From NCBI GenBank assembly GCA_031274035.1, contig JAISQR010000113.1, forward strand, positions 1 through 49,517: a stretch of 49,517 nt of DNA, given 5' to 3'. This document shows, in pieces, positions 240 to 49,213 of the stretch. Below the pieces are notes generated by a model. That model was not told the origin of the DNA. It was given only the letters and a program-made list of their open reading frames with translations, and did not search any database. The position numbers were made by a program, and so were the translations under genes. Position 1 is the stretch's first letter. Each line of letters opens with the position of its first letter. This DNA comes from Treponema sp. Its GTDB lineage: Bacteria > Spirochaetota > Spirochaetia > Treponematales > Breznakiellaceae.

Positions 240-1703
240 ATGGCGGTAAGTACTTTTAAAAGAGGCTTGCGTCTTAATACACGGAAACACGCTACTGAGG
301 GCAAACCAGTGGAGATGGTTCCTGAACCGAGGCAGGTTGTTATTCCCATCAATCAGCATTTCGGAGCGCCGAATCAGGCTCTGGTAAAGGCCGGGGATAA
401 GGTTAGAAGGGGGCAAAAAATTGCTGACGCAGTTACCCCCGGGCCTATGACCGTACCGGTTCATGCTTCTATCACCGGCATTGTAAAAAAGATAGAAGTC
501 CGTACTCAGCCAAACAATACCAATGGATTATGTATTATTATTGAAAAAGAACACCCTTCCGGTGAAAATAATGATGCCGTTTCTACTACCGGAAACCCCG
601 TCTCAGATGATACAGATTTCCTCCCGCCGCTGGACCCTTTTATCTGTACCAAAGAAGAAGCCTTAACCCGTATACGTGATGCGGGCATTACCGGTATGGG
701 CGGAGCGGGGTTTCCCGCTCATATCAAGCTGAATCCTCCGCCAAGCAAAAAAATTGATATCATCATAGCAGACGGCGCTGAATGTGAGCCATATCTTACC
801 ACTGATGAAGCGGTAATGACTGAAAAACCGGCAACCCTCCTTAAAGGTATTGCTATTGTTATGAAGATCACTGGGGTAATGAAGGCCATTATCGGCATGG
901 AAGATAATAAAGTGAACCTTATCCCTATGCTTGAAGAAGAAATAAGAAAGGCTTCCTACCCTGGCGTTATACAGATCGGGTTGTGCAAAACCCTGTACCC
1001 CCAGGGCGGCGAAAAGATGCTGATAAAGGCTCTGACCGGCAGGGAGGTTCCTTCGGGAGGGCTTCCTATGGATGCAGGATGTATTGTCAGCAATGTAGGA
1101 ACCCTTGTTGCAATTGCCGAGGCGTTTACGCTGGGGAAGCCGCTCATCGACCGTGATCTTACGGTTTCAGGCGGCGCTTGCAAATTTCCCAAAAATATCC
1201 GCGCTCCCATAGGAACTCTACTCACCGACCTGCCTCCTGATTTTATGGATATTGACTATCCTAAATTGAGAAAGGTCCTATTCGGCGGACCTATGATGGG
1301 CCAGGCTGTTCCGGCTGTAGCTATACCCATACAGAAAAACACATCCGGTATCATTCTGATGACTGAAGAAGAAACTGTCCAGGATGCGGAAGGCGCCTGT
1401 ATACGTTGCGGCCGCTGCATACGCAACTGCTCATGCCGGCTTGTTCCTGTTATTATGAATATGAACCTGGAAGCGGGCGATCTGGACGGCGCTATTAAGG
1501 CAGGACTTATGGACTGTATTGAGTGCGGAAGCTGCACGTATATATGTCCCGCCCGAATCAAACTGGTACAGCGTTTCAGGGTAGGAAAGCAGCGTCTGCG
1601 GATACGCCAGCAAGCGGTTCAAGTCCGCAAGCAGGCTGTAGAAGCTGCCGCCAAGGCTTCTACAGTTCCGCCGCCTGCCGGGGGCGGAACTCAAAAAAAT
1701 TAA
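240..1703 (+). CDS. rnfC: Rnf electron transport complex subunit C (RnfC)
   Basis: Peripheral cytoplasmic subunit of the Rnf complex, which couples reduced ferredoxin:NAD+ electron transfer to Na+ or H+ export. The protein has 487 residues. The Gly-rich FMN/NADH motif GGAGFPAHIK is at 154-163, the NuoF-like ECEPYLTTDE at 181-190, and YPQGGEK near 253-259. Two ferredoxin motifs follow: C387/C390/C393/C397 and C426/C429/C432/C436. The tail beyond 450 is Lys/Arg/Ala rich. An AAGGAG site nine bases upstream fixes the ATG. It is the first gene of a C-D-G-E-A-B operon, the order seen in acetogens such as Acetobacterium. All expected redox motifs are present, unlike the divergent homologue at 45795-47102. 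Confidence 0.96.
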   Translation: MAVSTFKRGLRLNTRKHATEGKPVEMVPEPRQVVIPINQHFGAPNQALVKAGDKVRRGQKIADAVTPGPMTVPVHASITGIVKKIEVRTQPNNTNGLCIIIEKEHPSGENNDAVSTTGNPVSDDTDFLPPLDPFICTKEEALTRIRDAGITGMGGAGFPAHIKLNPPPSKKIDIIIADGAECEPYLTTDEAVMTEKPATLLKGIAIVMKITGVMKAIIGMEDNKVNLIPMLEEEIRKASYPGVIQIGLCKTLYPQGGEKMLIKALTGREVPSGGLPMDAGCIVSNVGTLVAIAEAFTLGKPLIDRDLTVSGGACKFPKNIRAPIGTLLTDLPPDFMDIDYPKLRKVLFGGPMMGQAVPAVAIPIQKNTSGIILMTEEETVQDAEGACIRCGRCIRNCSCRLVPVIMNMNLEAGDLDGAIKAGLMDCIECGSCTYICPARIKLVQRFRVGKQRLRIRQQAVQVRKQAVEAAAKASTVPPPAGGGTQKN

Positions 1704-1713
1704 AGGATAGTGT

Positions 1714-2856
1714 ATGGCAGAAACCGACAAATCTGTTCGGGCAGAACAAAAAACAGCCCCTGTTTCCCCGCCCCAACTTATTATGCCCTTGCTTCTTTCT
1801 TCCAGTCCTCATATTGCAAATACAGTTGAATCGCGGTATCTCATGCGCAACGTGCTTATCTCTCTTGCGCCGGTTACGATTTTTGGTATAGTGTTGTTCG
1901 GCGTACCTGCCCTTCTCAATATACTGATTTCTGTTGCCGGGGCGGTTCTGGCGGAAGCGGCATTCCGGCGTATTACCAGGCAGGACATACGCATAGGCGA
2001 TCTTTCCGCTGCGGTAACCGGCCTTATGTTCGCACTCATTCTACCGCCTTCCACCCCGCTCTGGATGACTTTTTTAGGGGCGGTATTCTCGGTGGTGGTT
2101 GCCAAGGAATTTTTCGGCGGGCTGGGGGCCAATATCTTCAACCCAGCCCTTATCGGCAGGGCCTTTGTCCTTATGAGTTTTCCGGCTGCTATTACCAGTT
2201 GGACCAATCCCCGCGTTTTTGTTGAAAAAGTTAATGAAGCGGTTGACGCGGTAAACAGCGCTTCTATTATAGACGGCATTACCAATGCAACACCCCTCAA
2301 TATTATTAAAATGGGGAATACCATTGCCGATGTGGGTACAGGTTTTACCGCCCTGGGACTTTCGGCTTCAGATGATTACTGGTCTACCATAAAAACGCTT
2401 TTTATGGGTTTCCACTCAGGCTGTATAGGGGAATCGTCAATCTTCCTCATATTAGCAGGAATGGTGTTTCTCCTTATCACCCAGACCATAGACTGGCGCG
2501 CGCCTGCGTCTATGAGCGCGGCGGTACTCGTAGTTTCCCCCATCCTTGGTATGGATCCGCTTTTCAGCCTTATAAGCGGCGGTGTAGTTTTCGGAGCAGT
2601 TTTCATGGCTACCGATTACGTTACCGCCCCCCTTACCGAAAAAGGCAAACTGATTTTCGGTTTTGGGGCAGGGCTTATCACAGTACTTATCCGTAAATGG
2701 GGAAGTTTCCCGGAAGGGGTTACCTACGGCATCCTCATCATGAATGCTCTGACCCCGTTTTTGAACCAGCTTCTGCCTAAAAAATACGGCTTTGTACCTA
2801 AAAAGAAGACGGCTTCTGCTTCCGGCGTTTCGTCCGTTAAAGGAGAGGTTAAATGA
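1714..2856 (+). CDS. rnfD: Rnf complex membrane subunit D (RnfD)
   Basis: Integral membrane subunit (380 residues) homologous to NqrB, which carries covalently bound FMN. The family stretch FFGGLGANIFNPA is at about 133-145. The flavinylation context DGITNATPL (187-195) points to T193 as the probable FMN-linked threonine. Multiple hydrophobic segments span about 45-360. It starts 10 bases after rnfC and overlaps rnfG by four bases (ATGA), so translation is probably coupled. Covalent flavinylation needs an ApbE-type transferase, which is not in this window. Confidence 0.95.
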   Translation: MAETDKSVRAEQKTAPVSPPQLIMPLLLSSSPHIANTVESRYLMRNVLISLAPVTIFGIVLFGVPALLNILISVAGAVLAEAAFRRITRQDIRIGDLSAAVTGLMFALILPPSTPLWMTFLGAVFSVVVAKEFFGGLGANIFNPALIGRAFVLMSFPAAITSWTNPRVFVEKVNEAVDAVNSASIIDGITNATPLNIIKMGNTIADVGTGFTALGLSASDDYWSTIKTLFMGFHSGCIGESSIFLILAGMVFLLITQTIDWRAPASMSAAVLVVSPILGMDPLFSLISGGVVFGAVFMATDYVTAPLTEKGKLIFGFGAGLITVLIRKWGSFPEGVTYGILIMNALTPFLNQLLPKKYGFVPKKKTASASGVSSVKGEVK

Positions 2857-3467
2857 AAGGTATGCTGAAGTTAGGTTTAGTGCTGGCCTGTTATGCCGTT
2901 GCGGCCTGTGTAGGTCTTGCCTTTGTGTATACCGCTACATTCAAAACCATTGAGGAAAAGACGCAGGCAGATCTGAAGGCGTCCCTCAAAGAACTCTTCC
3001 CTGATGCCGATGATTTTCCCGGTATAAGCGGCGCCTTTGAACCGGAAGCTCAATCGGTACAATTTAAAGGCAAGTACGAAGCGCGGAAAAACGGCGTCCT
3101 TATCGGTGCGGTGGTAGAGGTTTCGAGCGCCAGTTACGGAGGCGCTATCAAAGTGCTGGTAGGCATGGGAGTAGACGGGAGGATCAGCCGTATCAAAATA
3201 CTTGAACACAAGGACACGCCCGGACTTGGAGCCAATGCCGCTTCCCCGGCCTATTATGTAGACCGGCCGACAAAAAAGACATTCTACGGACAATTTGAAG
3301 GTAAATCTATTGAGGATAGATTTGAAGTAAAAGGTGATGTAACCGCTATTACCGCATCTACCATAACAAGCAGGGCAGTTACTACGGCGGTGAAAGCCGC
3401 GGGCGATGCCGCCGCGAAATGGCTTACTGCCCAGGGGGTGTTTATCAGCGCCGGAGGTTCACGATGA
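2853..3467 (+). CDS. rnfG: Rnf complex flavoprotein subunit G (RnfG)
   Basis: A 204-residue protein with one N-terminal membrane anchor (about 6-28) and a periplasmic FMN-binding domain, homologous to NqrC. The flavinylation motif, canonically SGATxTS, appears as TASTITS at 167-173, making T170 the likely FMN carrier. The HKDTPGLG stretch (119-126) is also typical. It overlaps rnfD by four bases upstream and rnfE by four bases downstream (ATGA in both cases). Confidence 0.94.
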   Translation: MKGMLKLGLVLACYAVAACVGLAFVYTATFKTIEEKTQADLKASLKELFPDADDFPGISGAFEPEAQSVQFKGKYEARKNGVLIGAVVEVSSASYGGAIKVLVGMGVDGRISRIKILEHKDTPGLGANAASPAYYVDRPTKKTFYGQFEGKSIEDRFEVKGDVTAITASTITSRAVTTAVKAAGDAAAKWLTAQGVFISAGGSR

Positions 3468-4159
3468 GCGTTAAACAGACAGTACGGATTTTTACAAACG
3501 GCTTTATAAGGGAAAACCCCCTGCTCATGCTGATGATAGGGCTCTGTTCAGCATTGGCGGTTACTACGGCGACAGCCAACGGAATAGGGATGGGGCTTTC
3601 TATGACCTTTGTCCTCCTTATGTCCGAGGTAGTAATCAGTATATTCCGCAAGCTCATTCCTGAGTCGGTACGCATCCCGGTATTTATCATTGTTATCGCT
3701 TCGTTTACTACCGTGATAGATTATCTCCTCAAAGCCTATTTTCCGGATCTGTCCAAGGCTATGGGGGTCTTTATTCCCCTTATCGTCGTAAACTGCATCA
3801 TTATGGGGCGGGTGGAAGGCTTTGCGTCCAAACAGCCTTTGGGCGCCGTCATCCCCGATGCCCTAGGTATGGGTATAGGCTATACGTGGGTGCTTACAGG
3901 TATTTCTATCATCCGTGAACTTCTGGGTAGTGGAACCATATTAAGCATACCTGTTTTGGGCGATAGCTACCAGCCCATACTCTTTTTTGTGCTGCCGCCC
4001 GGCGGTTTCTTCGTATTTGCCCTCTTTATCAGCCTGAATATCTTTATTAAAAAACACCTTAGACCTATCACAGAAACAGGCCAAGACAGCCAAATAGAGC
4101 AGGAACAACCGGAGGTGCAAAACGCTTCCGTAAATATTTCTGTAAAGGAGCAGATATGA
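3464..4159 (+). CDS. rnfE: Rnf complex membrane subunit E (RnfE)
   Basis: Hydrophobic 231-residue subunit, homologous to NqrD, which pairs with RnfA to form the ion channel and holds an intramembrane iron-sulphur centre. The two conserved cysteines are C28 (IGLCSALAVT) and C111 (VVNCIIMGRVEGFAS). The start at MSVKQT is chosen because its ATG overlaps the rnfG stop as ATGA; an in-frame upstream ATG at 3419 lies deep inside rnfG. The hydrophilic Gln/Glu-rich C-terminal tail (about 205-231) is longer than usual. Confidence 0.95.
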   Translation: MSVKQTVRIFTNGFIRENPLLMLMIGLCSALAVTTATANGIGMGLSMTFVLLMSEVVISIFRKLIPESVRIPVFIIVIASFTTVIDYLLKAYFPDLSKAMGVFIPLIVVNCIIMGRVEGFASKQPLGAVIPDALGMGIGYTWVLTGISIIRELLGSGTILSIPVLGDSYQPILFFVLPPGGFFVFALFISLNIFIKKHLRPITETGQDSQIEQEQPEVQNASVNISVKEQI

Positions 4160-4758
4160 ATCTCTTTGAAATTTTTATCTCCGCCTTTCTTATCAATAAT
4201 GTCGTCCTGCTGCGTTTTATCGCACTCTGCCCTTTTATTGGGATGAGTTCAGATGAAGACAAAGCCATCGGTATGGGCCTTGCCGTAACCTTTGTTACCG
4301 TTCTTGCCACCGCGGTAACCTGGCCTATCTATCATTTTATTCTAGCCCCTGACGGAATATTTAAAGATATCCTCCCCAACGGCCTTGTCTTTCTCCAGCT
4401 TCTCGTCTTTATCCTTGTGATTGCGTCGTTAGTTCAGCTTGTTGAATTCTACCTTAAAAAATCCGCCCCCGCGCTTTATGCTTCTATGGGAATATACCTT
4501 GCGCTCATTACCACTAACTGCGCTATCCTTGCTGTTACCCTTGATAATATCAACAATAACTATAATTTTATTGAATCTATTGTATATGCAATCGGCGTTG
4601 CCGCGGGTTTTATGCTGTCCCTTATTCTGCTTGCAGGTATACGCAAACGCATACGAATCAGCCCTATTCCAGCCTTCCTCAAGGGAACGCCAATACTGTT
4701 TATATCCGCCGGTTTGCTTTCCATGGCCTTTATGGGCTTTTCAGGATTGGTAAAATAA
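4156..4758 (+). CDS. rnfA: Rnf complex membrane subunit A (RnfA)
   Basis: Six-helix membrane protein of 200 residues, homologous to NqrE and the pseudo-symmetric partner of RnfE. The conserved cysteines are C25 (LLRFIALCPFIG) and C122 (ITTNCAILAVT). The C-terminal signature IRKRIRISPIPAFLKGTPI is intact. It overlaps rnfE by four bases and lies 10 bases before rnfB. Confidence 0.95.
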   Translation: MNLFEIFISAFLINNVVLLRFIALCPFIGMSSDEDKAIGMGLAVTFVTVLATAVTWPIYHFILAPDGIFKDILPNGLVFLQLLVFILVIASLVQLVEFYLKKSAPALYASMGIYLALITTNCAILAVTLDNINNNYNFIESIVYAIGVAAGFMLSLILLAGIRKRIRISPIPAFLKGTPILFISAGLLSMAFMGFSGLVK

Positions 4759-4768
4759 GGAAGCCTTT

Positions 4769-5584
4769 ATGGAGAACATTGGTTTTATTGTTTTTATTAC
4801 TGCCGTATTTGCCGCGGCTTTAGCCTTTGTCCTGGGTCTGGCCCTGGGTTTCTTTAAAAAATTTTTTGCCGTAGAACAGGACCCGTTAATAGGTCAATTA
4901 CGGGAAGCCTTACCGGGCGCTAATTGCGGAGGGTGCGGTTATCCCGGCTGCGACGGCTATGCCGCCGCCATAGCCAAAGGTGAAGCCCCGATAGATCGCT
5001 GTACGGTGGGAGGAAAAACATCCCTGGATAAACTCTCCGCCCTTATGGGTGTAACAGGGAACCTTGTCCCGGTTGCCGCTGTTCTTGCCTGCCGCGGCGC
5101 TAAGGAATGTGCTGTAATTAAAGGGAAGTACACAGGATTGCAAACATGCCGTGGGGCAAAAATTTCTGCCGGTGGAACCAAACTTTGCGACTGGGGCTGC
5201 ATGGGTTTTGGCGATTGTACTAAAGTTTGTCAATTCGGGGCTCTTTCTATAGGGAAGGACGGTTTACCGGTAATCGATACTGCCAAGTGTACCGGTTGTA
5301 AAGCATGTGTAAATGAATGTCCGCAGCATCTTATCCTTGCGGTAAACCGCGACCGGCAAGGCCCGACCATGCTGTGTGCCAACCGTAACACTATTAGAGC
5401 TATGGTACGGCGTACCTGTACCGTCGGCTGCATGAAATGCGAACTGTGTGTCAGGTCTTGTCCGCAAAAATGTATCAGCATGGATAGATTCCTGCCGTTG
5501 ATTGATTATTCCAAATGTACCAATTGCGGGACATGTATATCAAAATGTCCAGCCAAGGTATACAGATTCTTGGAACTAGCTTAA
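4769..5584 (+). CDS. rnfB: Rnf complex ferredoxin-type subunit B (RnfB)
   Basis: Iron-sulphur subunit (271 residues) that accepts electrons from reduced ferredoxin. After one N-terminal membrane helix (about 5-28) comes a [4Fe-4S] domain with C53, C56, C61 and C78 (GANCGGCGYPGC). A Cys-rich region follows, with repeated CxxCxxCxxxCP-type ferredoxin motifs, including TGCKACVNECP, KCELCVRSCP and NCGTCISKCP. It is the last gene of the operon and the only rnfB in the window; the second Rnf-like cluster has none. Confidence 0.95.
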   Translation: MENIGFIVFITAVFAAALAFVLGLALGFFKKFFAVEQDPLIGQLREALPGANCGGCGYPGCDGYAAAIAKGEAPIDRCTVGGKTSLDKLSALMGVTGNLVPVAAVLACRGAKECAVIKGKYTGLQTCRGAKISAGGTKLCDWGCMGFGDCTKVCQFGALSIGKDGLPVIDTAKCTGCKACVNECPQHLILAVNRDRQGPTMLCANRNTIRAMVRRTCTVGCMKCELCVRSCPQKCISMDRFLPLIDYSKCTNCGTCISKCPAKVYRFLELA

Positions 5585-11949: not shown

Positions 11950-11989
11950 ACTATATCCTTTATAATGTAATTTCTATTCACAACTACAA

Positions 11990-37500: not shown

Positions 37501-40222
37501 CTTCATCGTCCAGCATAGTATTCTGGTTGTAGCGCAAGGTTTCAAGGTAAACCGCGGCAGGGCTGTTAGGGACGGGCCTGCCCTGGGTATCGGTAACAAT
37601 GTAGGGGAGTTTAATCGTTTCCCCTCCGCGGTAGATGGTTTTTGCGGGCGGACGTATCCCCGCGTAGAGTTCCGTCCGGTGAATGACGCGCGACATACGG
37701 CCCGCATAGTTCTGCCGGTCATCATCGGTAACCGAAGACTGGACTATATAACGCATAGGGCCCTGTATGCCGGAAAAGGAAGGCCGGAACACAAGGCGCG
37801 CCTTGCCTGCGTTATCCAGAATACCCTCCTCGTCGTGGACTGTTCCCGCGTCAAGGGGATCCGGTTCAGGGCCGAAGACATAACCGGGGAAGGCGGGAGG
37901 CGCAAAGACCTCGCTTTGGCGGTATATGCGCCAGGAGAAGGGCTTACCCGCCATAACCCCTCCGCGCAGGTATTCGGCGGATGTTTCTACCGTTACCGGC
38001 GTATCGATCTTCCACTCGCTGTAGGGGCTGGAGACATTTACCTGAAAGGTGGGGACGCGGTACTCCTCTACACGGAAACTGGTACTGGCGCTGTATATCC
38101 CCAGGTTGAGGGCCGCCGTGTACTCGCCTATATTGGCATCCTGGGGCAGACGGAATTCCCAGGCGGCGCCGCGGTAGGAATCAAGATTCTTTCCCGAATT
38201 ATAGACTTCCCGTCCGCGGCTGTCCCGTATACTAAGGACTATCGGGGTCAGGCCGTTGTATTCGCTTAAATTCCTCAAAAATGTCTTAAAGTAGACCGAT
38301 TCGCCGGGCCGGTAAACGCCGCGTTCGGTAAAGAAACTTGCGGCCAGAGGATTAACCCCCTTTACGGCGCCGGCCAGATTGAACTGCCAGGCGCTTGAAA
38401 GCTCATTGTTCACTATACGGCATACAGATATATCCCTTCCCATCTCCGCCGCAAGGTAGAGCGGTTCTTCAACGCCCCACTCAAAGGCTTTATCGGTTTT
38501 GATAATGCCTATTCCGTCCCTGCCTGTACCGGCTGCTTCGCCCAGCAGGCGTCCTGACGCGGAGTAGAGGCTGAGTTTTGCGCCCTGTACCGGTACGGCA
38601 TTGTAGATCCAGGTAACCCAGCCCAGCACGGCCCCGCCGGAAACCTTAGCGCTAAGCCCCAGATTGGTTGACTGCACAATAATACGGCGGGCAGGTATGT
38701 TTTTTGCTTCGGAACCTCTGCCTCCGGCGCTTATCTCGACCAGCTTGAGGCCCGCTCCGCTTTCTATGCCGAAATCGGCCTGGTATAGGTTGTTCAGGGT
38801 ATTGGGGGACGGACGGATAGTAAGGGGAACGCCCTGTAGGGAACGCTTCCCTAATTCGGGTCTCTTGGCCGCAAGGCTCTGTATATAGGCGGAAACATCC
38901 TCGTAGCGGTAGACGCTCACCGTAATATCCCGGAGATTCCGGTACTTAACGGGGATACGGTTTGTGTCGGCCTCGATAACAAGGCTCTCCCGCGGAAGCT
39001 CGAATATCGGGGGCAGATCCTGGCTGCGGAAGTCGAAGGCCAGAGGCTTGCGGAGCCTGTTCCCCAAAAGATCGGTGAACTCGGGCGCAAGCCGGAGGTA
39101 GTAGGGTTTACCTGTCTCAAAAGACGCCCGTATCACTACGGAAGAGCCGTAGTAGGAGAACTGGAGCGAAGGCGGCTGCGGGCTGATGCTGAAGTTATCT
39201 TCAAATAAAACAGGGTCTATCGAGGAATTAAATTCAATTTCCCATCTGCTTTCAAGCCGCGCGGCCCTGCCGCCGCGGATGCTGTCAATATCATCACTTG
39301 AATAATAAAAACCGGTAAAAACTGAAAAAGCCTGCTCCGCATAACTCTGGGCGCCCGGGGTCATAATCAGGGGATAGCGTATCGTTACACGGGTTCCGTC
39401 GGCAGGCATTTCAGGGAAGCTCAGGGCAAGGATATGGCTTGTGTCATAGCGGCCCTCACGGTCGAAGAAGAGCGATTCCGGCCTGTTAGCCCGTACCGGC
39501 AATTGCCGTCCCCCCGCCGCCGCGCTGACCAGCGAAGATGCCCAGCTTTCCAGGCTCTGATCGTAGAGCAGGTAAAGCGGGCCTTCGCCTATCTGCCCTG
39601 TGCCCGAATTGAGAAAGGCGACAAAACGCGGCTGTCCGGGCGTAACAGGCCGCGATCCTGTCTTACTACCCATCTGGAAATCTTCAACCTCGAAGGACAA
39701 CTCGGCTGAAACCGGCGCCAGTCTCCGGCTGCCCGTCTCTCCCGCAAGCGGTACAGAGCCTGAAACTTTCACGGAGAATACGGTTCCTACGCTCGGCCTT
39801 TCGGCCGGCTTAAACTGAAGCTCGTTTCCCCCAACCCAGGTCCAGGCGCCCGCTACCGTTCTTCTGCCGTAGTCAAATACCACACTATAGGACAGCCGCT
39901 GCGCTGTATTCTGTAAGGCGGTTACGGCAGCCGTATCCACCGGCTTTTCAAAACGTATCCTGATCGGCCCCTCCGGCCGGCTCATAGGGATAATCGCCGT
40001 CCTGAGATACCTCTCCTCCGTGCGCCATTCAGGGGTTTTAGGCGCTTCCTGGTAAAGTATCACCGCCTCCCCCGCCTTGATAGGGGCGTCTCCGCCCGAG
40101 GGTTCATTCTGCGGCCACAGCACCCACGGAAGAAGGAACATAACAAAAAAAACACCGGCATATATACCGCGCCTACAGGCGCGACGCCTACGGGCGCAAA
40201 CATGGAAAAATTCCGTACTCAT
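34511..40222 (-). CDS. Bacterial alpha-2-macroglobulin (YfhM type)
   Basis: Very large exported protein of 1903 residues, a protease trap thought to guard the periplasm after envelope damage. A hydrophobic N-terminal segment (about 20-36) is followed by MG-type beta domains, a bait region, and a thioester motif C1413-I-E-Q in YPHGCIEQTTSE, then the alpha/alpha toroid. No lipobox is visible, so it may be anchored by its N-terminal helix rather than lipid. It forms an operon with pbpC, whose cell-wall role matches the proposed repair function. Confidence 0.93.
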   Translation of the reverse strand: MSTEFFHVCARRRRACRRGIYAGVFFVMFLLPWVLWPQNEPSGGDAPIKAGEAVILYQEAPKTPEWRTEERYLRTAIIPMSRPEGPIRIRFEKPVDTAAVTALQNTAQRLSYSVVFDYGRRTVAGAWTWVGGNELQFKPAERPSVGTVFSVKVSGSVPLAGETGSRRLAPVSAELSFEVEDFQMGSKTGSRPVTPGQPRFVAFLNSGTGQIGEGPLYLLYDQSLESWASSLVSAAAGGRQLPVRANRPESLFFDREGRYDTSHILALSFPEMPADGTRVTIRYPLIMTPGAQSYAEQAFSVFTGFYYSSDDIDSIRGGRAARLESRWEIEFNSSIDPVLFEDNFSISPQPPSLQFSYYGSSVVIRASFETGKPYYLRLAPEFTDLLGNRLRKPLAFDFRSQDLPPIFELPRESLVIEADTNRIPVKYRNLRDITVSVYRYEDVSAYIQSLAAKRPELGKRSLQGVPLTIRPSPNTLNNLYQADFGIESGAGLKLVEISAGGRGSEAKNIPARRIIVQSTNLGLSAKVSGGAVLGWVTWIYNAVPVQGAKLSLYSASGRLLGEAAGTGRDGIGIIKTDKAFEWGVEEPLYLAAEMGRDISVCRIVNNELSSAWQFNLAGAVKGVNPLAASFFTERGVYRPGESVYFKTFLRNLSEYNGLTPIVLSIRDSRGREVYNSGKNLDSYRGAAWEFRLPQDANIGEYTAALNLGIYSASTSFRVEEYRVPTFQVNVSSPYSEWKIDTPVTVETSAEYLRGGVMAGKPFSWRIYRQSEVFAPPAFPGYVFGPEPDPLDAGTVHDEEGILDNAGKARLVFRPSFSGIQGPMRYIVQSSVTDDDRQNYAGRMSRVIHRTELYAGIRPPAKTIYRGGETIKLPYIVTDTQGRPVPNSPAAVYLETLRYNQNTMLDDEGRTATYNREIISSSLLGNTVSGAAPRDYSYRAERAGMYRLRFEVTDSKGRSASSYFTFTVSGGETSAWPRFDRERIDLILSKQNYKIGEEASVVVQTPFESARGLLTIEANGVLDTYPFVINRDTPQINFPVKAEYAPNAFVSVILLRGRVHYARDATGFETGAPAYRIGYARFEADPDAQRLAVAVSAPKTASPGQTLKVAFTVKNPAGLPTDASAAVMVVDEAVLGMTGYATPDPIKTAYSIRVLSVRNASNLLDLPHSRRARYEALFPSGDSGDPAMLPWSDDMLRRLFRSTAFFAPAVPVDSNGQGNFTFTLPDNLTAYRIMIVAVNRLGQMGSGQSSLQSRRDLMIEPALPRFVYEDDVLTVQARVFNGTETASSVSVSAQFTGFQTEDRPRPAPALTVGAGSSVMVSWQGRIQSGFPEVKFRFSAAMGNIRDDAEYSIPVRVRGNRQRSTANIIVNGAGDIVLPLPGTRSRGSIELTVSETPLSELKDSVEFLMRYPHGCIEQTTSETYPLIVLADILPAIGVTEDPIAVKKFADAGIERLMTFRTSSGGLSFWPGESSPHAFGTAFGLSALIEAKKRGWNIPQDFMDGMVKYLEDIIAKKNYRREMYSQGDADADTLAFFAMTLGRMNRPQISLMQDLWRSKNLLTPFGLSFLATAVKEAGDRTVPLSEVLSEIRKAAVETADSAAFPGSPRGNWSFDTPTRANAAALMAYAVGDPQNPLTAKFLRGLMEKRRDGLWGTTQGNVFGIMAVYHLTSGSALTGRSAPSFTVSIDGKNYPASAFSSLSGGRTWVLTINEAELPPARADSRVQGIQNRGISLRGGGTVYLTAKASYDMPIDSRFLSPQDKGIRFTRTFETLDGRALGSVIPLGSIVRVRLAAQTGRKLNYAAFDDLLPAGFEILNTNLLTTESMNGDGESAAAAGTRAFTNFRDFRDYRAAFYADELPAGSYEFVYYVRATTPGTFFLPISLAETMYDPDTLGTTGGGSITIR

Positions 40223-40476: not shown

Positions 40477-42372
40477 TCAGATACTTTTCAGACCTATTTT
40501 CAGTCTGAATTCCGTTTTCCAAATTTCCCCCGGCTGTAAGTCTATTAGCATCACCGGCATAATACAGGTCGATTGATACTCGTCCGTGTTTTCCCCGGTC
40601 CTCACCGAATATATCCAGGCGTCAAAGGGCCTGTCAGCGGCGAGCCTTATGCTTACCTCGTTCTTTATATCCTGGAATTCCACTACGCTGTTCCCCCCAA
40701 ATACCCCCGCGGGGGAAATTTCTTCACGGGAATCTCCCCGTATACAGAAAACTTTGAGGAATGCCTTGCTATCGTCTGGAAAGGACAGATCGATACTCGG
40801 CATAAATTTGAAACGCTCAGGTCTGCTATGCCTATTGCTCAGTCTATAAGCTACCGCAAGCGAATCCTTTTCAAGAGAAAAAGTCTTTTCTATCTCAATT
40901 GCCTCGAATGCTTTCTCCCCTTCAACGGAGAGGCTGCCAAGGATCCGTGCAGGCAGCGTAAAACTTGCCTTTTCCCGATTCCCTGATATTTCGCAGCTTT
41001 CGTAGTATTCATCACCGCAGAAACGGAAGCCCCGGAATTCACCATGTAGAATATGCTCAAGGGCGGCTTCGGGATGCGCAAGAATATCGGCAAACGCGCA
41101 ACGCTTGTTCTTTCTACCGCGCTCTTCGGCTTTTTGCCCCGTGTAGGTGTCAAGATAATTCCAATTCCGCGGAAGATAGTCAAGCTCGAAGATACTTGCC
41201 CCCGCCGCGTCTATGTAACAGTTTATAAACTCATCCTGGAAGATATATGCGGTACGGCCGTCCATGTTGAAATCAAAGGCTGAAAGCGATGGGATAAAAG
41301 CGGTTTCCCTGCTTATCTTTTCAGCTTCGAGCAACGCGCGGTACACAGCCTTCCTCTTGGTCTGGAATCCGATAAGCGGCGCGTTTTGGGAACCAGGATA
41401 AAACATATCACAGCCCTGAGCTTTCCAGAGTTCCCCGCGGGCGGTGTTCTTCCGTGCCTTATCCCCGCGAAGCTGGTTGATCAATATATGCGTAAACATC
41501 ATTTTGGCGTAAATACCGTTTGCTTCAGGACAATCGGTGAGGAATTTTCTGGGCAGGAAGGTCTCCCCCCCCGTCCATTCAATAAAACTAGGAAAGTAAC
41601 ACTTTTCAAAGCCCTTTAACTGACGGAAAACCCTTCCCGGCGTGATGAATTCTATCCTGGGGTCCGACGCGGAGAGGGCCTCAAAAAAATCGTGGTAGAA
41701 AAGTTCGTTCGTATTCCTGTCGAAAAATTTATCGGTAAAGATAGTGAATACCTTTTCCTGTTCCGGCATACTATCCTCCAGGAGCTTTGCCAGAACATTT
41801 GAGGGATTTCTTACGCTTATTGTTCTACCCAACTCCGAATACACCGGGAATACCGTGATGATCTTCCCCTGATCCTCGGTAATGCAGGGGCTGTAATACG
41901 GGCTCTTGCCCTGAACATGGGTAAAAATGGTTTCGTTCAGGAATGTATAACTCATACCGCAGGCATGAAGAGGGCTGGTCAGGTTCTGTTCCCAGGCATT
42001 ATAGGGCAGCAGGCAGCCTTGGGGCCGCTTTCCAAAGGTCTTACGGAGATAGGTGGTCATCATCTCAATCTGACCAAGTTTATCGGTGAGCGGTATAAGG
42101 GGTAACAACGGCTCATAGAATCCGCCGCCCAGAAATTCCACCTGCTTCCGGCTGACCAGATTCTTGAGCAGCAAGATAAGTTCAGGGTGCCGCCGCTCAA
42201 TCCACTGCAATAGAACACCGGAATAGTGCAGGACAAAATTCACGCGGGGAAATTTGTAGAGGGTTGTAATAAACGGCTTCAATTCCCGCCGGTAGAGTTC
42301 TTCAAATTCATCGGCAGAAGAACCATACGGGAGATGTTTATGAGAACCTAAAAATAAACTTATTTTCCCCAT
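40477..42372 (-). CDS. GH57-like glucanotransferase/amylase homologue with altered active site
   Basis: Protein of 631 residues colinear with GH57 4-alpha-glucanotransferases. HKHLPYG (11-17) matches the HxHxP motif and EFLGGGFYEP (79-88) is intact. The third motif, where the nucleophile Glu sits (usually WLTERVWQ), reads LLPYNAWEQ with Tyr124 at the Glu position. The acid/base Asp may be D214 (IFTDKFF), but the QCNDxYWHG motif reads QGCDMFYPGS. A C-terminal beta-sandwich domain (about 390-631) is present. The MGKISLFLGSHKH start matches homologues; the frame extends to 42438 but a strong hairpin covers that part. It may be non-catalytic or have a changed reaction. Confidence 0.8.
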   Translation of the reverse strand: MGKISLFLGSHKHLPYGSSADEFEELYRRELKPFITTLYKFPRVNFVLHYSGVLLQWIERRHPELILLLKNLVSRKQVEFLGGGFYEPLLPLIPLTDKLGQIEMMTTYLRKTFGKRPQGCLLPYNAWEQNLTSPLHACGMSYTFLNETIFTHVQGKSPYYSPCITEDQGKIITVFPVYSELGRTISVRNPSNVLAKLLEDSMPEQEKVFTIFTDKFFDRNTNELFYHDFFEALSASDPRIEFITPGRVFRQLKGFEKCYFPSFIEWTGGETFLPRKFLTDCPEANGIYAKMMFTHILINQLRGDKARKNTARGELWKAQGCDMFYPGSQNAPLIGFQTKRKAVYRALLEAEKISRETAFIPSLSAFDFNMDGRTAYIFQDEFINCYIDAAGASIFELDYLPRNWNYLDTYTGQKAEERGRKNKRCAFADILAHPEAALEHILHGEFRGFRFCGDEYYESCEISGNREKASFTLPARILGSLSVEGEKAFEAIEIEKTFSLEKDSLAVAYRLSNRHSRPERFKFMPSIDLSFPDDSKAFLKVFCIRGDSREEISPAGVFGGNSVVEFQDIKNEVSIRLAADRPFDAWIYSVRTGENTDEYQSTCIMPVMLIDLQPGEIWKTEFRLKIGLKSI

Positions 42373-42427
42373 ATAACTGAGGCGCTTGCAAAATATCAGA
42401 TTCCGCAAACGCAACCTTAAATTTAAG

Positions 42428-42452
42428 GGCGAAAGCACTTACCGCTTTCGCC
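42428..42452. other. Hairpin upstream of the GH57-like gene
   Basis: GGCGAAAGC, seven-base loop, GCTTTCGCC: a perfect 9-bp stem 56-80 bases before the chosen start codon, in the probable leader. No T-run follows on either strand, so it does not look like a terminator. A second weaker stem GGTAAAGG/CCTTTACC lies at 42592-42624. Confidence 0.5.
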
Positions 42453-43000: not shown

Positions 43001-43576
43001 TCAGAATTCCAGTATTTTATAGAAGATCCCCGCGGCGGCGGTAAAAATTAAGGACAGAAGCCCCATCGAAATAAGCATGAGGGGCTTACCCCTCAGAAGA
43101 CCGGGAACCTTCTCAATTAAGGATCGCCTCCTAATCTGGGCAAGGATGAAAATGCCGACCAGAACGCCCAACGAGAAATGGAAGGAGATTATCAGTCCTT
43201 CCGCAACGGTTTCCGCCAGATGCCGGGTTAGAAAGAGGGCGGCCAAGGCAAGCCCATCGTAGGAAGAAAGGCAATCAAAGATTTTATCCTCGGTTTTCAC
43301 GGGAAATAATTTAGAGAATGCGGTTTCCAGGCCCAGACAGGTAAGGCACGAAAGGGGGTAATACAAGAGATATTCAAAGAAGCCCAAATTGATCAGGGCC
43401 GATACAGAGAAAAATACCATGAAGAGCGTCAATACCGAAAGGAAAAGACAGAGTAATTGCAGCAAGGGCAGAGAATTCTTTTTTGGCAGCGCCGCCCCCG
43501 CCATACCCAGGCCGAATTGCAGCACCAGATTCCAAGAGAGGCCGGCCATTATCCCGAAACAGGCAAAATCTCTCAT
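43001..43576 (-). CDS. Divergent RnfA-like membrane protein (second cluster)
   Basis: Membrane protein of 191 residues. It aligns with RnfA through the C-terminus (IRRRSLIEKVPGLLRGKPLM against IRKRIRISPIPAFLKGTPI of the complete operon) and NLVLQFGLG near the start. Both RnfA cysteines that hold the intramembrane iron-sulphur centre are missing: the C25 region reads LQFGLGMAG and the NCAIL region reads LFLTR. It overlaps the RnfE-like gene by four bases and ends the seven-gene operon. It may keep only the structural or ion-path role. Confidence 0.75.
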   Translation of the reverse strand: MRDFACFGIMAGLSWNLVLQFGLGMAGAALPKKNSLPLLQLLCLFLSVLTLFMVFFSVSALINLGFFEYLLYYPLSCLTCLGLETAFSKLFPVKTEDKIFDCLSSYDGLALAALFLTRHLAETVAEGLIISFHFSLGVLVGIFILAQIRRRSLIEKVPGLLRGKPLMLISMGLLSLIFTAAAGIFYKILEF

Positions 43577-44265
43577 TCAATATCCCCGGCGGGAAACAGC
43601 GGACGCCTGAAATGGGCATATATCGATAGGCCGTAGCCCATAAGGATGAGAGCCCCCGCGGAACCCGCAATTATCCGTATCGGAAAAAACACAGCGGCGT
43701 CCTTTGCACCGAATATCTCCATTATACCTTGGACACCTCCGGGAAGACTGAGAGCGGCGCAGCCTATCGGTTCCCGTATCAAAGCCATGCCTACAATTAA
43801 AAGGGCGATAATTCCCGCTTCCCTGCACGCAAGGGAAACCGCTTCCCCCATATCATAGAATTTAGCCCGCTCAAAGATACCTGACGCGATACAGCAGCCC
43901 GGAACAAGAAGGATGATATACACGGTTCCTAAAACCAGTATAGGATTCATAAACCAGAGCAGGAAAAGGTAGAAACTGCCCAAGAGGGATGTCAAAAACA
44001 TGAGTATCGGGCTAAGACCCTTTTGGGGTAAAACAGGTTTTGATACTATAAAAATCAGCATAGAAAAATCGTAAACCCAAAATAGAGCTCCGGCAACGGT
44101 AACCGCATAGGACAACCGTGCTGAAGCCATCACTATAAGCCCTCCGCAGAAAAGACTTGCAAGCGGCGAATGCCGGCCCCAAAAGATATGGGTCCTGTAA
44201 TACTGACTTACCGTAGAACTCTTCACGGTATTGCCTTCGGGTCTATCCCCATAAACCTGACTCAT
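43573..44265 (-). CDS. Divergent RnfE-like membrane protein (second cluster)
   Basis: Membrane protein of 230 residues aligning with RnfE along its length (for example IREPIGCAALSLPGG against IRELLGSGTILSIPV). The second RnfE cysteine is kept (PGCCIASGIFERA, C124/C125 against NCIIMGRVEGFA). The first is not in register: ASLFCGGL has Cys three residues early. A hydrophilic N-terminal extension (1-30) is extra. It overlaps both neighbours by four bases. Confidence 0.78.
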   Translation of the reverse strand: MSQVYGDRPEGNTVKSSTVSQYYRTHIFWGRHSPLASLFCGGLIVMASARLSYAVTVAGALFWVYDFSMLIFIVSKPVLPQKGLSPILMFLTSLLGSFYLFLLWFMNPILVLGTVYIILLVPGCCIASGIFERAKFYDMGEAVSLACREAGIIALLIVGMALIREPIGCAALSLPGGVQGIMEIFGAKDAAVFFPIRIIAGSAGALILMGYGLSIYAHFRRPLFPAGDIE

Positions 44266-44816
44266 AGTTCTCTCTCCCCGGAGGCATTTCCAGCCCTCCT
44301 CTGTTTTGCGTTTCTCTCTATACGCAGGATGTACTGGTTTACGATCCCGTCCGGCACAGTTCCTTGAAGGGTCTGGGGGTTTAAAAAGACCAGCCTTTCC
44401 ACAAAACCTTCAGGCGTAACTACGGCCATATAGGGGAAGAGAATACCGCCGTTCATTATAGTAAAGACAAGCCCTCTTTTGTCAGAATTGAATATGCTAA
44501 ACCAGGTTCCCAGCCGTTTCTGCCTGGGGCTTAGGGAGTTAAAGGGGATAAGAGATTCCAGCCGCGGTTCGGCTTCCCGCTGCTCTAGGATGCGGTTTAC
44601 CGCATTCAAAAGCGCCTTGTCCCGGGGCGTCTGCGTTAAAAGCCACAGCAACGCGCCCGCAAGAACGAGTCCCCCTATCCAGGCCGCAATATATGTAATA
44701 TCCTTTGCCGAAAAAAGCGGTTGCTTCCCATCCGTCACTTTAGTATTCACTATACTCCATAAATTTTTCCTATTCTTAGGCAATATTCCGTTTTCCATAA
44801 AAAATTCGGTTTTCAA
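44262..44816 (-). CDS. Divergent RnfG-like protein lacking the FMN site (second cluster)
   Basis: Protein of up to 184 residues placed where rnfG is expected, with one membrane helix (about 42-62) and a short extracytoplasmic domain (VVTPEGFVERLVFL resembles the VGVDGRISRIKIL stretch of RnfG). The SGATxTS-type flavinylation motif is absent and the C-terminal half of the FMN domain is missing. The start is uncertain: ATG 44816 overlaps rnfD-like by 41 bases; GTG 44750, preceded by GGAG, is a good alternative. Assigned mostly by position and weak similarity. Confidence 0.6.
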   Translation of the reverse strand: MKTEFFMENGILPKNRKNLWSIVNTKVTDGKQPLFSAKDITYIAAWIGGLVLAGALLWLLTQTPRDKALLNAVNRILEQREAEPRLESLIPFNSLSPRQKRLGTWFSIFNSDKRGLVFTIMNGGILFPYMAVVTPEGFVERLVFLNPQTLQGTVPDGIVNQYILRIERNAKQRRAGNASGEREL

Positions 44817-45795
44817 TTTTCCGTATCAGGGGCAGGAACGCATTAAACAGCCCTACCGCATAAATTGCCCCGTAAGGTTCCGCCCCCAGGCAACGGAAAA
44901 GGCCGGACAGAAAACCTGACAGAACCGCTGCTAACAGTATCCCCCAGCTTGACTTAGGAGAGCTGACGGTATCCGCAATAAGGATAAAAGCCGCGGCCAA
45001 TGTTCCCCCTGAAAGAAGATAGAAAAGGACGTTCCCTTGCCAGAACTGGCCGCCCGACACAAGCGCGCCTGAGATGCGTGTTACCAAACCGAAAACAGCC
45101 AGGTATGCCAGTGACGCCCAGGCGCGGCTTACCTGGGAAGAGATGATAAACAGGCTCCCCAGCAGAAGCCCCAACACCCCCCTGTCGGCAATAATACCAG
45201 GGGAGGATGACTGAAAGAGGTCTATATAACCGCCCGGCAGCATTGCTCCAAACGGGTTAAAGAGCATATTATTGAGAAAGGACCGTACCGCGGTATCAAG
45301 GGCGCTGGCAGGAACGGGGAGAAAATTCTCCCCCGCCTGGATGTTCAGAAGCGGGGACCCCTCCAACGCATTAAGAAAAACCTGGGGCCAGGAAAACCTG
45401 ACAAAAAGCCAGGCGCCTACAGCCGGATTAAGCCAGTTGGCTCCCAAGCCCCCAAAACTATGCTTTACAACGGTCATAGCAAAGACAGCCCCCATTACAG
45501 CATATATCGGATGTATGGTATTGGGCAAGAGCAGGGAGAATACCAGGGCGGACGCCACTGCGCTGCCGTCTCTTAGTTTTTCAATTTCTTCGGTACGGTA
45601 AAAGAGGAAAAGTTCCGTCAGCACCGCGGCAAGAACAGATGACAATGCTATAAGCAGGGAAGAAAATGAATCGCCCAAGCTGGACTGGATAATGGCAAGG
45701 GCCGCACAAAAGCTGACCATCCACATTCTAAAATTAGTTGAGCGGGAAAGATTCACCTGGGGGGTCTGGTAACGGCGTCCGTAATTCTCCGGCAT
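44776..45795 (-). CDS. Divergent RnfD-like membrane protein (second cluster)
   Basis: Membrane protein of 339 residues. KHSFGGLGANWLNPAVGAWLFV matches EFFGGLGANIFNPALIGRAFV of RnfD, and the multi-helix profile is the same. The flavinylation context DGxTxATPL is absent; the matching region reads ALDTAVRSFLNNMLFNPFG. The ATG (45795) overlaps the stop of the RnfC-like gene as TAATG, so the longer frame to 45939 is rejected. Confidence 0.82.
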   Translation of the reverse strand: MPENYGRRYQTPQVNLSRSTNFRMWMVSFCAALAIIQSSLGDSFSSLLIALSSVLAAVLTELFLFYRTEEIEKLRDGSAVASALVFSLLLPNTIHPIYAVMGAVFAMTVVKHSFGGLGANWLNPAVGAWLFVRFSWPQVFLNALEGSPLLNIQAGENFLPVPASALDTAVRSFLNNMLFNPFGAMLPGGYIDLFQSSSPGIIADRGVLGLLLGSLFIISSQVSRAWASLAYLAVFGLVTRISGALVSGGQFWQGNVLFYLLSGGTLAAAFILIADTVSSPKSSWGILLAAVLSGFLSGLFRCLGAEPYGAIYAVGLFNAFLPLIRKIENRIFYGKRNIA

Positions 45796-47102
45796 TAGTT
45801 CCCCCTTAAAGCAGAATCCTGGATAACCTTTCCCAAGGGAAGCCTGGACGGACAAACCGCTTCGCAGCAGCCGCAGCCGTGGCATTCGACCGCCCTTCCC
45901 TGCGTTTCGTCGCTGGTTTTGACAGATGATTTTGCCCATTTGTAGAGTTCTTCCGGATCAAGCCCTACAGGACAGACCCTCCGGCATTCACCGCAGCTTA
46001 TACAACCCCGGCTTGGCCCCCCGCCCACCTGCTTCTCAAGCAGGGCGAAAACGGCAAAGCTGGTTTTAATTATAGGCTCGTCCAGATCGACCACCGCCCA
46101 GCCCAGAAGGGGGGAACCGGTAGCGATACGTTTAGGCTTATCAATAAACCCCCCGCATTCGGCAAAGACCTCCCCAATGCGGGTGCCTATCCGTACCTTC
46201 ATAACCTGGGGATTCTTGACCGCCGATCCTCCTACCGACACATAACGGTCCAGTATAGGCTTGTTCAGCTTTACCGCATCATGGATTGCGGCAAGGGTTG
46301 CCGGTCCCAAAATAAGCAGGGCGCCCAAGGTTAGGCCCTCCTTTTTTTCATATATACGGAGAACCATCTCCAATTCACGGCGGTTCCGCTGGGGGTAACG
46401 GGAACCTACCAACACGGTAGAAACCTCAATACCGCCCGGAGGCTGGACCGTGCGGAAACTACCGGCCAGATCTTTTTCCTGCTCTGATACGGCGAAGATG
46501 ACGCGGTTCGCCCTGGAAGCCCTTGCCGTTATAAAGGCCCCCTCAAGCACTGCCTGAAACCGTTCTTTGCACAGCACATAATCTGCGGCAAGCCAGGGAT
46601 CGTCAAAGATACAGCGTACCACCATGCTTATAGGTTCGGACAGAGAACGGAAGGCGGAAAGTATATCCGAAACAGGGGCGCCAACCCCTTCCATTTCTAC
46701 AATGCCCATATCCGCAATTATCCGCTGTATTTCAAAAGAAGAAAGACCTTCCCAGCGGAAACTATCTTCCTTTCTGCCCAGTTTTTCAAAACGGCCTTCC
46801 AGACGTATAACCAGGGCGTCATTGTTAATATCCGCGGCAGTCTTCCAGGAGACCATATTGACTACCCTGCCGGGAGCTGTCGCGTGGATGTTGGCGGATC
46901 CTAGGCCCTGCCCCCGGCCTATAAGCATACCTTCCCGCACATAGTCCCCAATATTCACAACAGGAAAGGCTCTTGGGCCGGTATGCTGGATGAGCGGTAT
47001 AACGGAAAAACCCGGTAAAAAGGCAGTTACACTGGATGTCCTGGGGGGAACCGTAGTATCCTCATAACGGATTCCCCCACGGGGAAATGCGTATACCTTC
47101 AT
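45795..47102 (-). CDS. Divergent RnfC-like iron-sulphur protein (second cluster)
   Basis: Protein of 435 residues with the RnfC domain order. The C-terminal ferredoxin part is intact: C367/C370/C373/C377 (CISCGECRRVCP) and C407/C410/C413/C417 (CHGCGCCEAVCP). The FMN/NADH part is not: GGAGFPxHxK reads MEGVGAPVSDIL (137-148), ECEPYLTxDE reads RCIFDDPWLAAD (163-174) and YPQGGEK reads YPQRNRR (236-242). It therefore probably does not bind NADH, although it could pass electrons through its two clusters. It overlaps the upstream 537-residue membrane protein gene by four bases. Confidence 0.85.
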   Translation of the reverse strand: MKVYAFPRGGIRYEDTTVPPRTSSVTAFLPGFSVIPLIQHTGPRAFPVVNIGDYVREGMLIGRGQGLGSANIHATAPGRVVNMVSWKTAADINNDALVIRLEGRFEKLGRKEDSFRWEGLSSFEIQRIIADMGIVEMEGVGAPVSDILSAFRSLSEPISMVVRCIFDDPWLAADYVLCKERFQAVLEGAFITARASRANRVIFAVSEQEKDLAGSFRTVQPPGGIEVSTVLVGSRYPQRNRRELEMVLRIYEKKEGLTLGALLILGPATLAAIHDAVKLNKPILDRYVSVGGSAVKNPQVMKVRIGTRIGEVFAECGGFIDKPKRIATGSPLLGWAVVDLDEPIIKTSFAVFALLEKQVGGGPSRGCISCGECRRVCPVGLDPEELYKWAKSSVKTSDETQGRAVECHGCGCCEAVCPSRLPLGKVIQDSALRGN

Positions 47103-48712
47103 GCGGCAACCCGCTTGTCATTTAATATAAACATCTTTCTCTTTTTTTTACTCCATATCGATGCTGCCGTATATAAAAAGGGAATACCTGCCATAAAGAG
47201 CAGGGAAAGGGGAACATAGTCCTGTACTTCCCGTCTGATCGCATCCTGGACGGATAAACGCATACCCCTTCCCGCCATCAGGAACGTCTTTTCAGTACCA
47301 GCCTCCTCACGTTTTCTTTCATTTATAGTATGCTGAAAATCGGTAAAAAAATCCATAAGCGGGGCAAGGGGAAACGGCGGAAAAACAGCATTTTGTCCTT
47401 CAATTCCGCCGATATTCCCTTCAAACGCGGTTAGGTCCCAATAATCCCCGTCATGGTAGGCGCCGGATATAAGCCCGTCGCTGCCGGTATAGTAACGGAG
47501 ATACGGCGGAGGGGTTTCTTTAAATATATCACCGGGCGTTCCCAGCGGCAGGTATGAAAAGAACCGCTGAAAAAGGACATGGGCCGTATAATCATCAGGG
47601 TAAAGCCTTGTAAGCAGGACGCCGGCCTCTGTTTCGGCTTCGCGGTCAATTGGGTTGATAAGATCGCGCAGGGGCGGGAACCAGAGAAGAAAGCCCATGC
47701 CCAGCATGAAGGGCAGCAGGAACCGGAGAAATATATCCGGTTTTAAGGGATGATGGGACAGCATAAAAACCGGTGTAAAACGCACATGCCCCCTCGACTT
47801 CCCGCTTAGGGACTGAGTTTTCAGGCAGTTTAAAAAGATCAGCATAAAAACAAAAAAAACGGCGGATCCTAAAATGACGCCTATGGAATTCCAGACAATC
47901 AGAAACCAGTAAAGTACAAAAAACGCCAAACTAAGTATCCAGTATACCTTAAAAACCCTCAACCTGTCTATTGCGGCGCCAAGCCGGGGCCTGGCTAGGT
48001 CCCGGCCATAGCGCATATCGGTAAAAAATTCCGCCAACGGCTCCCGCAGAAGGGCGGAGAATGTCAAAAGGCATGCGCAGGGAGCAAACCCCCTGCTCCC
48101 CGTAAAGGCAAAAGGGAAGAGCGCGGGTACCAAAGCAGTGTAGAGCAGCGGACGCCCTGATAGGACAAGGGCAAGCAAAAGAGCGGCCGCAAAGATCACA
48201 AGATACCAGAAAATGGTCTCCTGTCTCCCTATGAAAATAAGGGAAAAAGGAATATCCCCCAGGGAAGAGAGAAGGGCCTTTTTCAGATTCTTAAATGCGA
48301 TCCCTGAAAAATCCGGCGTAAAGGGGATAAAGAACCTGCGCAGACCATCGTAGACAAAAAAGGAACGGAATTTATCCGCATAGCCGTCATTCCGCAGGTC
48401 AAAGGATTCAAGCTCCTCTCCGTATTGATCCAGGGGAATACGTTTAAGATCTCCAAAATCATCAAAGAAAACCCACTGATTAGATTCCGAAATAATGCTG
48501 TCTTCCGGTTTTTCTATGCCCGCGGCTTGGGAAACCGCATCCGAGGCTAAAAGATCGCGGATAAGCCTATCGGAGTAGGATTCCTCTACACGGATTTCAA
48601 TATAAGCCGGAGAAAACCGGGGCATATTGAAAATCCAAAAGAGGTAAAACAAGGATACCCCCAGACCCAGAGATAAAAGCACTGAAATTAGAGCGGAATT
48701 CCTGTAGGACAT
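47099..48712 (-). CDS. Unknown 537-residue membrane protein heading the Rnf-like cluster
   Basis: No family recognised. One N-terminal membrane helix (about 8-28), then an extracytoplasmic segment of about 135 residues, then hydrophobic segments about 165-210, 255-300 and 335-360, a long soluble stretch (about 365-500) rich in Tyr/Pro/Asp, and a final helix (about 500-520) with a Lys-rich end (KKKRKMF). No iron-sulphur or flavinylation motif is visible. The four-base overlap with the RnfC-like gene suggests that it is a subunit or assembly partner of that complex. Confidence 0.7.
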   Translation of the reverse strand: MSYRNSALISVLLSLGLGVSLFYLFWIFNMPRFSPAYIEIRVEESYSDRLIRDLLASDAVSQAAGIEKPEDSIISESNQWVFFDDFGDLKRIPLDQYGEELESFDLRNDGYADKFRSFFVYDGLRRFFIPFTPDFSGIAFKNLKKALLSSLGDIPFSLIFIGRQETIFWYLVIFAAALLLALVLSGRPLLYTALVPALFPFAFTGSRGFAPCACLLTFSALLREPLAEFFTDMRYGRDLARPRLGAAIDRLRVFKVYWILSLAFFVLYWFLIVWNSIGVILGSAVFFVFMLIFLNCLKTQSLSGKSRGHVRFTPVFMLSHHPLKPDIFLRFLLPFMLGMGFLLWFPPLRDLINPIDREAETEAGVLLTRLYPDDYTAHVLFQRFFSYLPLGTPGDIFKETPPPYLRYYTGSDGLISGAYHDGDYWDLTAFEGNIGGIEGQNAVFPPFPLAPLMDFFTDFQHTINERKREEAGTEKTFLMAGRGMRLSVQDAIRREVQDYVPLSLLFMAGIPFLYTAASIWSKKKRKMFILNDKRVAA

Positions 48713-48724
48713 GTACCTCTCGAC

Positions 48725-49213
48725 TTATAAATAGGTATAGGCTGCCGCAATGAAAATGCCCAGGAGAGAACCCATCACTACTTCCAGAGGCTTATGACCG
48801 TAAACCTCTTTTACCGGATGATATTCAATCCCCAAACGTTCCGATACATTCCGGCCAAGATTGTTCAGGGTCCTTCCCTGAATTCCTGAAGCCCTGCGTA
48901 CCCCCATAGCATCTCTTAATACGATAAGCGCCACAAATAAAGATACCACAAATAAATTTGAACCTATGCCTTCTTGAAACCCGACCGATGTAGCCATAGC
49001 CGAAACCAGCGCCGCATGACTGGACGGCATGCCGCCGGTACGCCATGCAATAGTTGCCAACAATTCTCTAGGGCTTCTCTTACGGGTACCAATAAGCACA
49101 ATGAGTGTCTTGATAAGCTGTGCAAAAAACCAACTTGAAACCGAAGAGAGAAAAAGCGGATTCTCAAAAAAAGGCTTTAAGGATACGGTTCGTATTGACA
49201 AAGAAAAAGACAT
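48725..49213 (-). CDS. Divergent PAP2-family (YuiD-like) membrane protein
   Basis: Protein of 162 residues resembling the DUF212/YuiD group of acid phosphatase-like membrane proteins. The signature TGGMPSSHAALVSAMATS is at about 59-76, with LRDAMGVRRASGIQ and EVYGHKPLEVVMGSLLG following. It is 12 bases before the 537-residue protein gene. The family's substrate is not established. The start has no ribosome binding site, and a promoter sits directly before it. Confidence 0.85.
   Translation of the reverse strand: MSFSLSIRTVSLKPFFENPLFLSSVSSWFFAQLIKTLIVLIGTRKRSPRELLATIAWRTGGMPSSHAALVSAMATSVGFQEGIGSNLFVVSLFVALIVLRDAMGVRRASGIQGRTLNNLGRNVSERLGIEYHPVKEVYGHKPLEVVMGSLLGIFIAAAYTYL

Follow-up and report, generated by a model that had tools for sequence, protein, structure and literature searches.

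Gene content of the locus

We analysed a window of 49,517 nucleotides of Treponema DNA, meaning the whole stretch, whose coordinates are used throughout. A survey of the open reading frames at 43001-47102 found five overlapping genes on the minus strand in the order C-D-G-E-A and no rnfB, just as a preliminary description of this DNA had claimed. That description treated the five genes as the unit; the genes are indeed there, but the unit starts one gene before RnfC, with a gene that we call X. The features considered here are:

48725..49213, minus strand: DUF212 (divergent PAP2) gene, conserved neighbour upstream
47099..48712, minus strand: gene X, first gene of the unit, 537 aa membrane protein, 4-base overlap with the RnfC-like gene
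45795..47102, minus strand: RnfC-like, 435 aa, TIGR01945 at 234.6 bits, two [4Fe-4S] motifs, FMN/NADH loops replaced
44776..45939, minus strand: RnfD-like ORF, PF03116 (E 4e-53), FMN threonine changed to serine
44262..44816, minus strand: gene in the RnfG position, transmembrane anchor and short periplasmic domain, flavinylation motif absent
43573..44265, minus strand: RnfE-like, 230 aa, hhalign 98.5% against intact RnfE, [2Fe-2S] cysteines not conserved in the family
43001..43576, minus strand: RnfA-like, 191 aa, hhalign 98.0% against intact RnfA, both [2Fe-2S] cysteines gone
40477..42438, minus strand: GH57 glycoside hydrolase gene, conserved neighbour downstream, also adjoining intact Rnf in other families
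240..5584, plus strand: intact rnfCDGEAB operon of a different Rnf lineage, used as the comparison set

Judging from the starts of orthologues, the true start of RnfD likely lies near 45795, and that of the protein in the RnfG position is probably downstream of the TTG at 44816. The GH57 gene is adjoined by a minus-strand gene (34511-40222) for a 1903-aa protein resembling bacterial alpha-2-macroglobulin. A third Rnf-type locus of the same genome (G000:C372, L023), cut by a contig end, has the RnfC FMN loop and cysteines intact.

RnfC and RnfD are clear Rnf homologues by Pfam and NCBIfam profiles, with RnfC scoring only 12.5 bits against the nqrA profile compared with the value above for rnfC. 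RnfA was matched weakly by these profiles; for RnfE and RnfA homology is backed by the profile comparisons with their intact counterparts, so that homologous RnfA, C, D and E subunits stand together in one operon. The protein in the RnfG position received no homology support from the profile comparison of sequences (1.1%), and RnfG/NqrC is among the best of the weak fold matches of its model (pLDDT 84); we assign it by position only. PDB sequence searches with this protein and with X returned nothing useful.

Gene X encodes an N-terminal transmembrane segment, a periplasmic alpha/beta domain and further transmembrane segments downstream, and no Pfam family matched it. The fold of its low-confidence model (pLDDT 74) matches mainly the RND superfamily with Z values of 6.4-8.8, and on such a model values under 8-9 are no higher than common arrangements give; the resemblance is too weak to serve as more than a lead. 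X-like genes, recognised by position and topology, lie upstream of rnfC in the intact Rnf loci of families f9, f10, f14, f18, f19 and f20, with HMM support in f18 and f20 only. X as a newly acquired partner of the cluster is ruled out by these genes, which precede rnfC in intact loci too.

Cofactor sites in the subunits

We scored cofactor ligands in aligned columns, taking the roles of residues from the work on Acetobacterium woodii and Clostridium tetanomorphum Rnf (PMC11889175, PMC9588780). Alignment columns were preferred to a regular expression for the flavinylation motif because the latter recognised only 12 of 23 intact RnfG proteins. Local misalignment may have affected the ligand calls in the most diverged RnfE, RnfA and RnfG sequences.

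The RnfC-like protein of the window retains both [4Fe-4S] motifs (C367/370/373/377 and C407/410/413/417), while its FMN/NADH loops are replaced: GGxGFP..K is gone and ECEPY has become FDDPW. Aligned columns thus bear out the earlier reading of an RnfC with two ferredoxin clusters and no FMN/NADH motifs. All eight cysteines are kept in every one of the 67 FMN-less loci, which belong to five families, and these motifs suggest that the clusters are occupied. In the window's own family, f1, the former FMN domain is as a whole well conserved, with a mean identity of 0.587 versus 0.511 for the Fe-S domain, and contains new invariant residues (R163, C164 and FDDPW at 166-170), suggesting a new ligand or partner.

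RnfD carries a serine at the expected FMN threonine, at a site that is not conserved across f1. Serine is also found at this position in the otherwise intact RnfD proteins of loci L063, L069 and L087, and may be flavinylated as well. Loss of the flavinylation threonines from RnfD and RnfG, as described previously, is clear for the RnfG position, where the motif is missing from a short domain, but ambiguous for RnfD. The claim that every flavin site had disappeared does not hold: the riboflavin contacts of RnfD (N123 and D249 in A. woodii) persist in the window as N171 and the aspartate of ILIADTVSSP, and the N and D/E residues are present in 14 of 14 f1 members. Riboflavin is a probable occupant of RnfD in this family.

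In the RnfA-like protein both [2Fe-2S] cysteines are absent, in agreement with the preliminary description. The single cysteine that it had noted in the RnfE-like protein is not conserved in the family, and the aligned columns of the window's cluster lack the four-cysteine [2Fe-2S] set of RnfA and RnfE. We also considered ligands in shifted positions, an outcome that would have spoken against the original proposal. No Cys or His column reaches 50% in the alignments of stripped RnfE and RnfA, which rules this out. The sites that survive are contiguous, because transfer from riboflavin to the RnfC cluster is an adjacent step in Rnf, over 11.7 A (PMC9588780). Residues lost here are essential in Acetobacterium, and equivalent single losses abolish ferredoxin-dependent NAD reduction in A. 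woodii (PMC11889175).

Distribution, origin and selection

Scanning 84,980 species genomes, we obtained 20 loci from termite-gut spirochaetes (Treponema), nearly all of which show the order DUF212-X-C-D-G-E-A-GH57 where the contig extends that far. The same gene order is found throughout Treponematales, and this recurrence shows that the cluster is not a chance arrangement. Of 393 genomes sampled across the phylum, 143 had a match to the RnfE-like profile, and some of these matches were intact Rnf. About 90 further loci were retrieved and scored for cofactor ligands, with families coded f1 to f48. The profile search for clusters without rnfB that had been suggested earlier thus found them to be widespread in Treponematales. 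Six loci of families f3, f4, f7 and f11 (L075-L078, L068 and L070) hold RnfD/G/E/A-type operons in which no RnfC was found, and are probably NQR.

Intact rnfCDGEAB is followed by the same GH57 gene in f9, f10, f12, f14, f18, f19 and f20, and an X-like gene frequently precedes rnfC there. Most simply, the window's cluster is the inherited ancestral rnf locus of spirochaetes, which the sampled loci show in many states of disassembly. The intact operon at 240-5584 is part of a separate Rnf lineage, common to genomes of f2, f4, f5 and f17, and lacks the GH57 neighbour, which excludes a recent paralogue of that operon as the origin of the cluster.

On a quick tree of RnfC and RnfD from 84 loci, with its root and long branches taken as they stand, loss of the RnfC FMN/NADH loop is a single change on a split with a support of 100. 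The RnfA/E cysteines require five changes, rnfB nine, the RnfD Thr/Ser six and the riboflavin aspartate of RnfD two. The [2Fe-2S] cysteines of RnfA/E, rnfB and the flavin sites of RnfG and RnfD were lost later than the RnfC loop, and repeatedly. Family f4 still has RnfB and the RnfD threonine, often with SGAT in RnfG, and its RnfA/E cysteines are decaying piecemeal. Most f3 members have lost the RnfA/E cysteines and RnfB and kept the RnfD sites; in f3 and f4 together, every locus without RnfB (9/9) has also lost the RnfA/E cysteines. In f1, the family of the window, RnfB and the sites of RnfA/E and RnfG are gone and the N and D/E of RnfD remain. Family f2 often retains RnfB in a shortened form, in which the domain feeding RnfA/E is gone and the two-cluster ferredoxin domain is kept. 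A relay from RnfD to RnfC is not universal, since one f2 clade has tryptophan in place of the riboflavin aspartate.

The smallest genome sampled in the order (G056, 1,139,633 bp) carries only the stripped form. Its single RnfD-type gene at 173952-174851 corresponds to tp0151, which lies at 174174 in a strain whose genome measures about 1.1396 Mb, and from this match in size and gene position we take the genome to be Treponema pallidum. None of the lost sites is present in its cluster, and the eight RnfC cysteines are all there; rnfB had no match anywhere in the genome, and no X was seen in the interval from C to the DUF212 gene. The preliminary description was correct in ascribing related divergent Rnf genes to T. 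pallidum. In L054, from a T. pallidum-sized genome, the RnfC-like ORF (10902-12521) has a roughly 50-residue insertion near the former FMN glycine loop.

The cluster is under purifying selection: across four close pairs, all genes have dN/dS values of 0.08-0.37. Selection had been proposed from the intact reading frames, and values near 1, which would have pointed to decay, were not seen. Progressive loss of cofactor sites is what a nonfunctional remnant would show as well. Given these dN/dS values, retention of the RnfC cysteines in 67/67 loci, the conserved operon and the persistence of the cluster in a T. pallidum genome of 1.14 Mb, we reject this explanation, whose probability we regard as negligible.

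Possible functions and relation to known systems

It is well supported by the sequences that the cluster cannot be a normal Rnf, neither a ferredoxin:NAD oxidoreductase nor a redox-driven ion pump, and in this respect we concur with the preliminary description: the path through RnfB, RnfA/E and RnfG and the NAD end are both absent from the sequence. The literature assumes that the treponeme complex is an ion pump, a role that it has probably lost. To a repurposed, membrane-anchored and cytosol-facing Fe-S module derived from an inherited Rnf, with the RnfC clusters as a redox relay or sensor, we would give about an even chance. The FMN and NAD(H) site of RnfC would have disappeared first, in the ancestor of these families; lineage by lineage, loss of the RnfA/E [2Fe-2S] site and the flexible cluster of RnfB would have followed, then of RnfB itself and the flavins of RnfG and RnfD. 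What remained would be a scaffold of RnfA/D/E/G and X holding the two RnfC [4Fe-4S] clusters at the cytosolic face, in the window's family beside the probable riboflavin in RnfD. The electron partner of these clusters would most likely be a soluble carrier, either ferredoxin or flavodoxin, and their role that of a redox relay, or of a redox sensor controlling the membrane part or X. Ion pumping would be absent.

A non-redox assembly or transport machine, in which the RnfC clusters have a purely structural role and RnfD/A/E form a channel or a scaffold for X, is in our view unlikely. It would account for the loss of most transmembrane cofactor sites in the window, and it finds some encouragement in the resemblance of the RnfD fold to urea/ammonium transporters (PMC9588780) and in the mostly RND-type fold matches of X, whose Z values however fall in the range of common arrangements noted above. 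Against it, the riboflavin contacts are kept in f1, f3 and f4, and the tryptophan that often replaces the pocket aspartate in f2 would fill the site rather than open it. Still less probable, in our estimate, is a one-way conduit in which the RnfC clusters pass electrons via RnfD towards the periplasm, or in the opposite direction. RnfD-based single-path systems have been described (PMC8238504), several f4 loci keep the RnfG SGAT while the RnfA/E cysteines decay, and the 29 loci of f4 and f3 keep the RnfC clusters in 29, the RnfD Thr/Ser in 27, N123 in 29 and D/E249 in 28 cases. However, the RnfD FMN site varies in f1 and its RnfG has no flavin site, and f2 keeps little besides the RnfC clusters; the conduit therefore matches the intermediates more closely than it does the window.

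We regard it as very unlikely that the complex is still an ion pump driven by redox chemistry with unusual cofactors, as has been proposed for T. pallidum. The complex of this species has been modelled as a flavin-based ion pump or flavodoxin:NAD Rnf (PMC7512555, PMC11717252, PMC11371664), and the subunit order is kept. Nevertheless, the RnfC FMN/NADH loop, RnfB and the RnfG flavinylation site are all absent, RnfE and RnfA offer no alternative conserved Cys/His ligand, and in A. woodii the equivalent single losses abolish activity (PMC11889175). Returning to the Fe-S module, we suggest more tentatively that in host-dependent treponemes including T. pallidum the Rnf scaffold has become a new membrane machine whose only gating or driving element is the pair of RnfC [4Fe-4S] clusters, with no ion pump and no Rnf-based energy conservation in T. 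pallidum; we hold this somewhat short of an even chance. Energy models of T. pallidum with a flavin-based Rnf pump (PMC7512555, PMC11717252) become directly testable, as the sites they need are missing, and if so the source of its ion gradient is reopened.

An atypical Rnf in T. pallidum is already in the literature. In open-licence papers we did not find the site-by-site loss, the graded intermediates, the invariant RnfC cysteines or the predicted lack of pumping. The T. pallidum 'noncanonical RNF' (tp0151 rnfD and neighbours; PMC7512555, PMC11371664) is the orthologous locus, published as a flavin-based ion pump, whereas its sequences lack the sites that such a pump needs. With the Rnf complexes of A. 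woodii (9ERI) and C. tetanomorphum (7ZC6) the window shares homologous RnfA, C, D and E, gene order, the two RnfC [4Fe-4S] motifs and the riboflavin contacts of RnfD; unlike them it has no RnfB, no RnfC FMN/NADH site, no [2Fe-2S] cysteines in RnfA/E and no RnfG flavin site. The NQR/RNF-like flavinylated systems (PMC8238504) are likewise partial Rnf/Nqr with an incomplete electron path, but their defining features, flavinylation and an RnfD-NqrF fusion, are both missing from the cluster. Na+-NQR derived from Rnf by loss of RnfB and of RnfC cofactors (PMC4014512): the Fe-S clusters of the RnfC homologue were lost, the membrane path was kept and NqrF was gained. The window's cluster, in which the ORF survey found no NqrF, is the reverse, with Fe-S kept and the membrane path lost. 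The locus thus offers a rare series in which a respiratory complex is dismantled stepwise with one cofactor pair kept, mirroring in reverse how NQR arose from Rnf.
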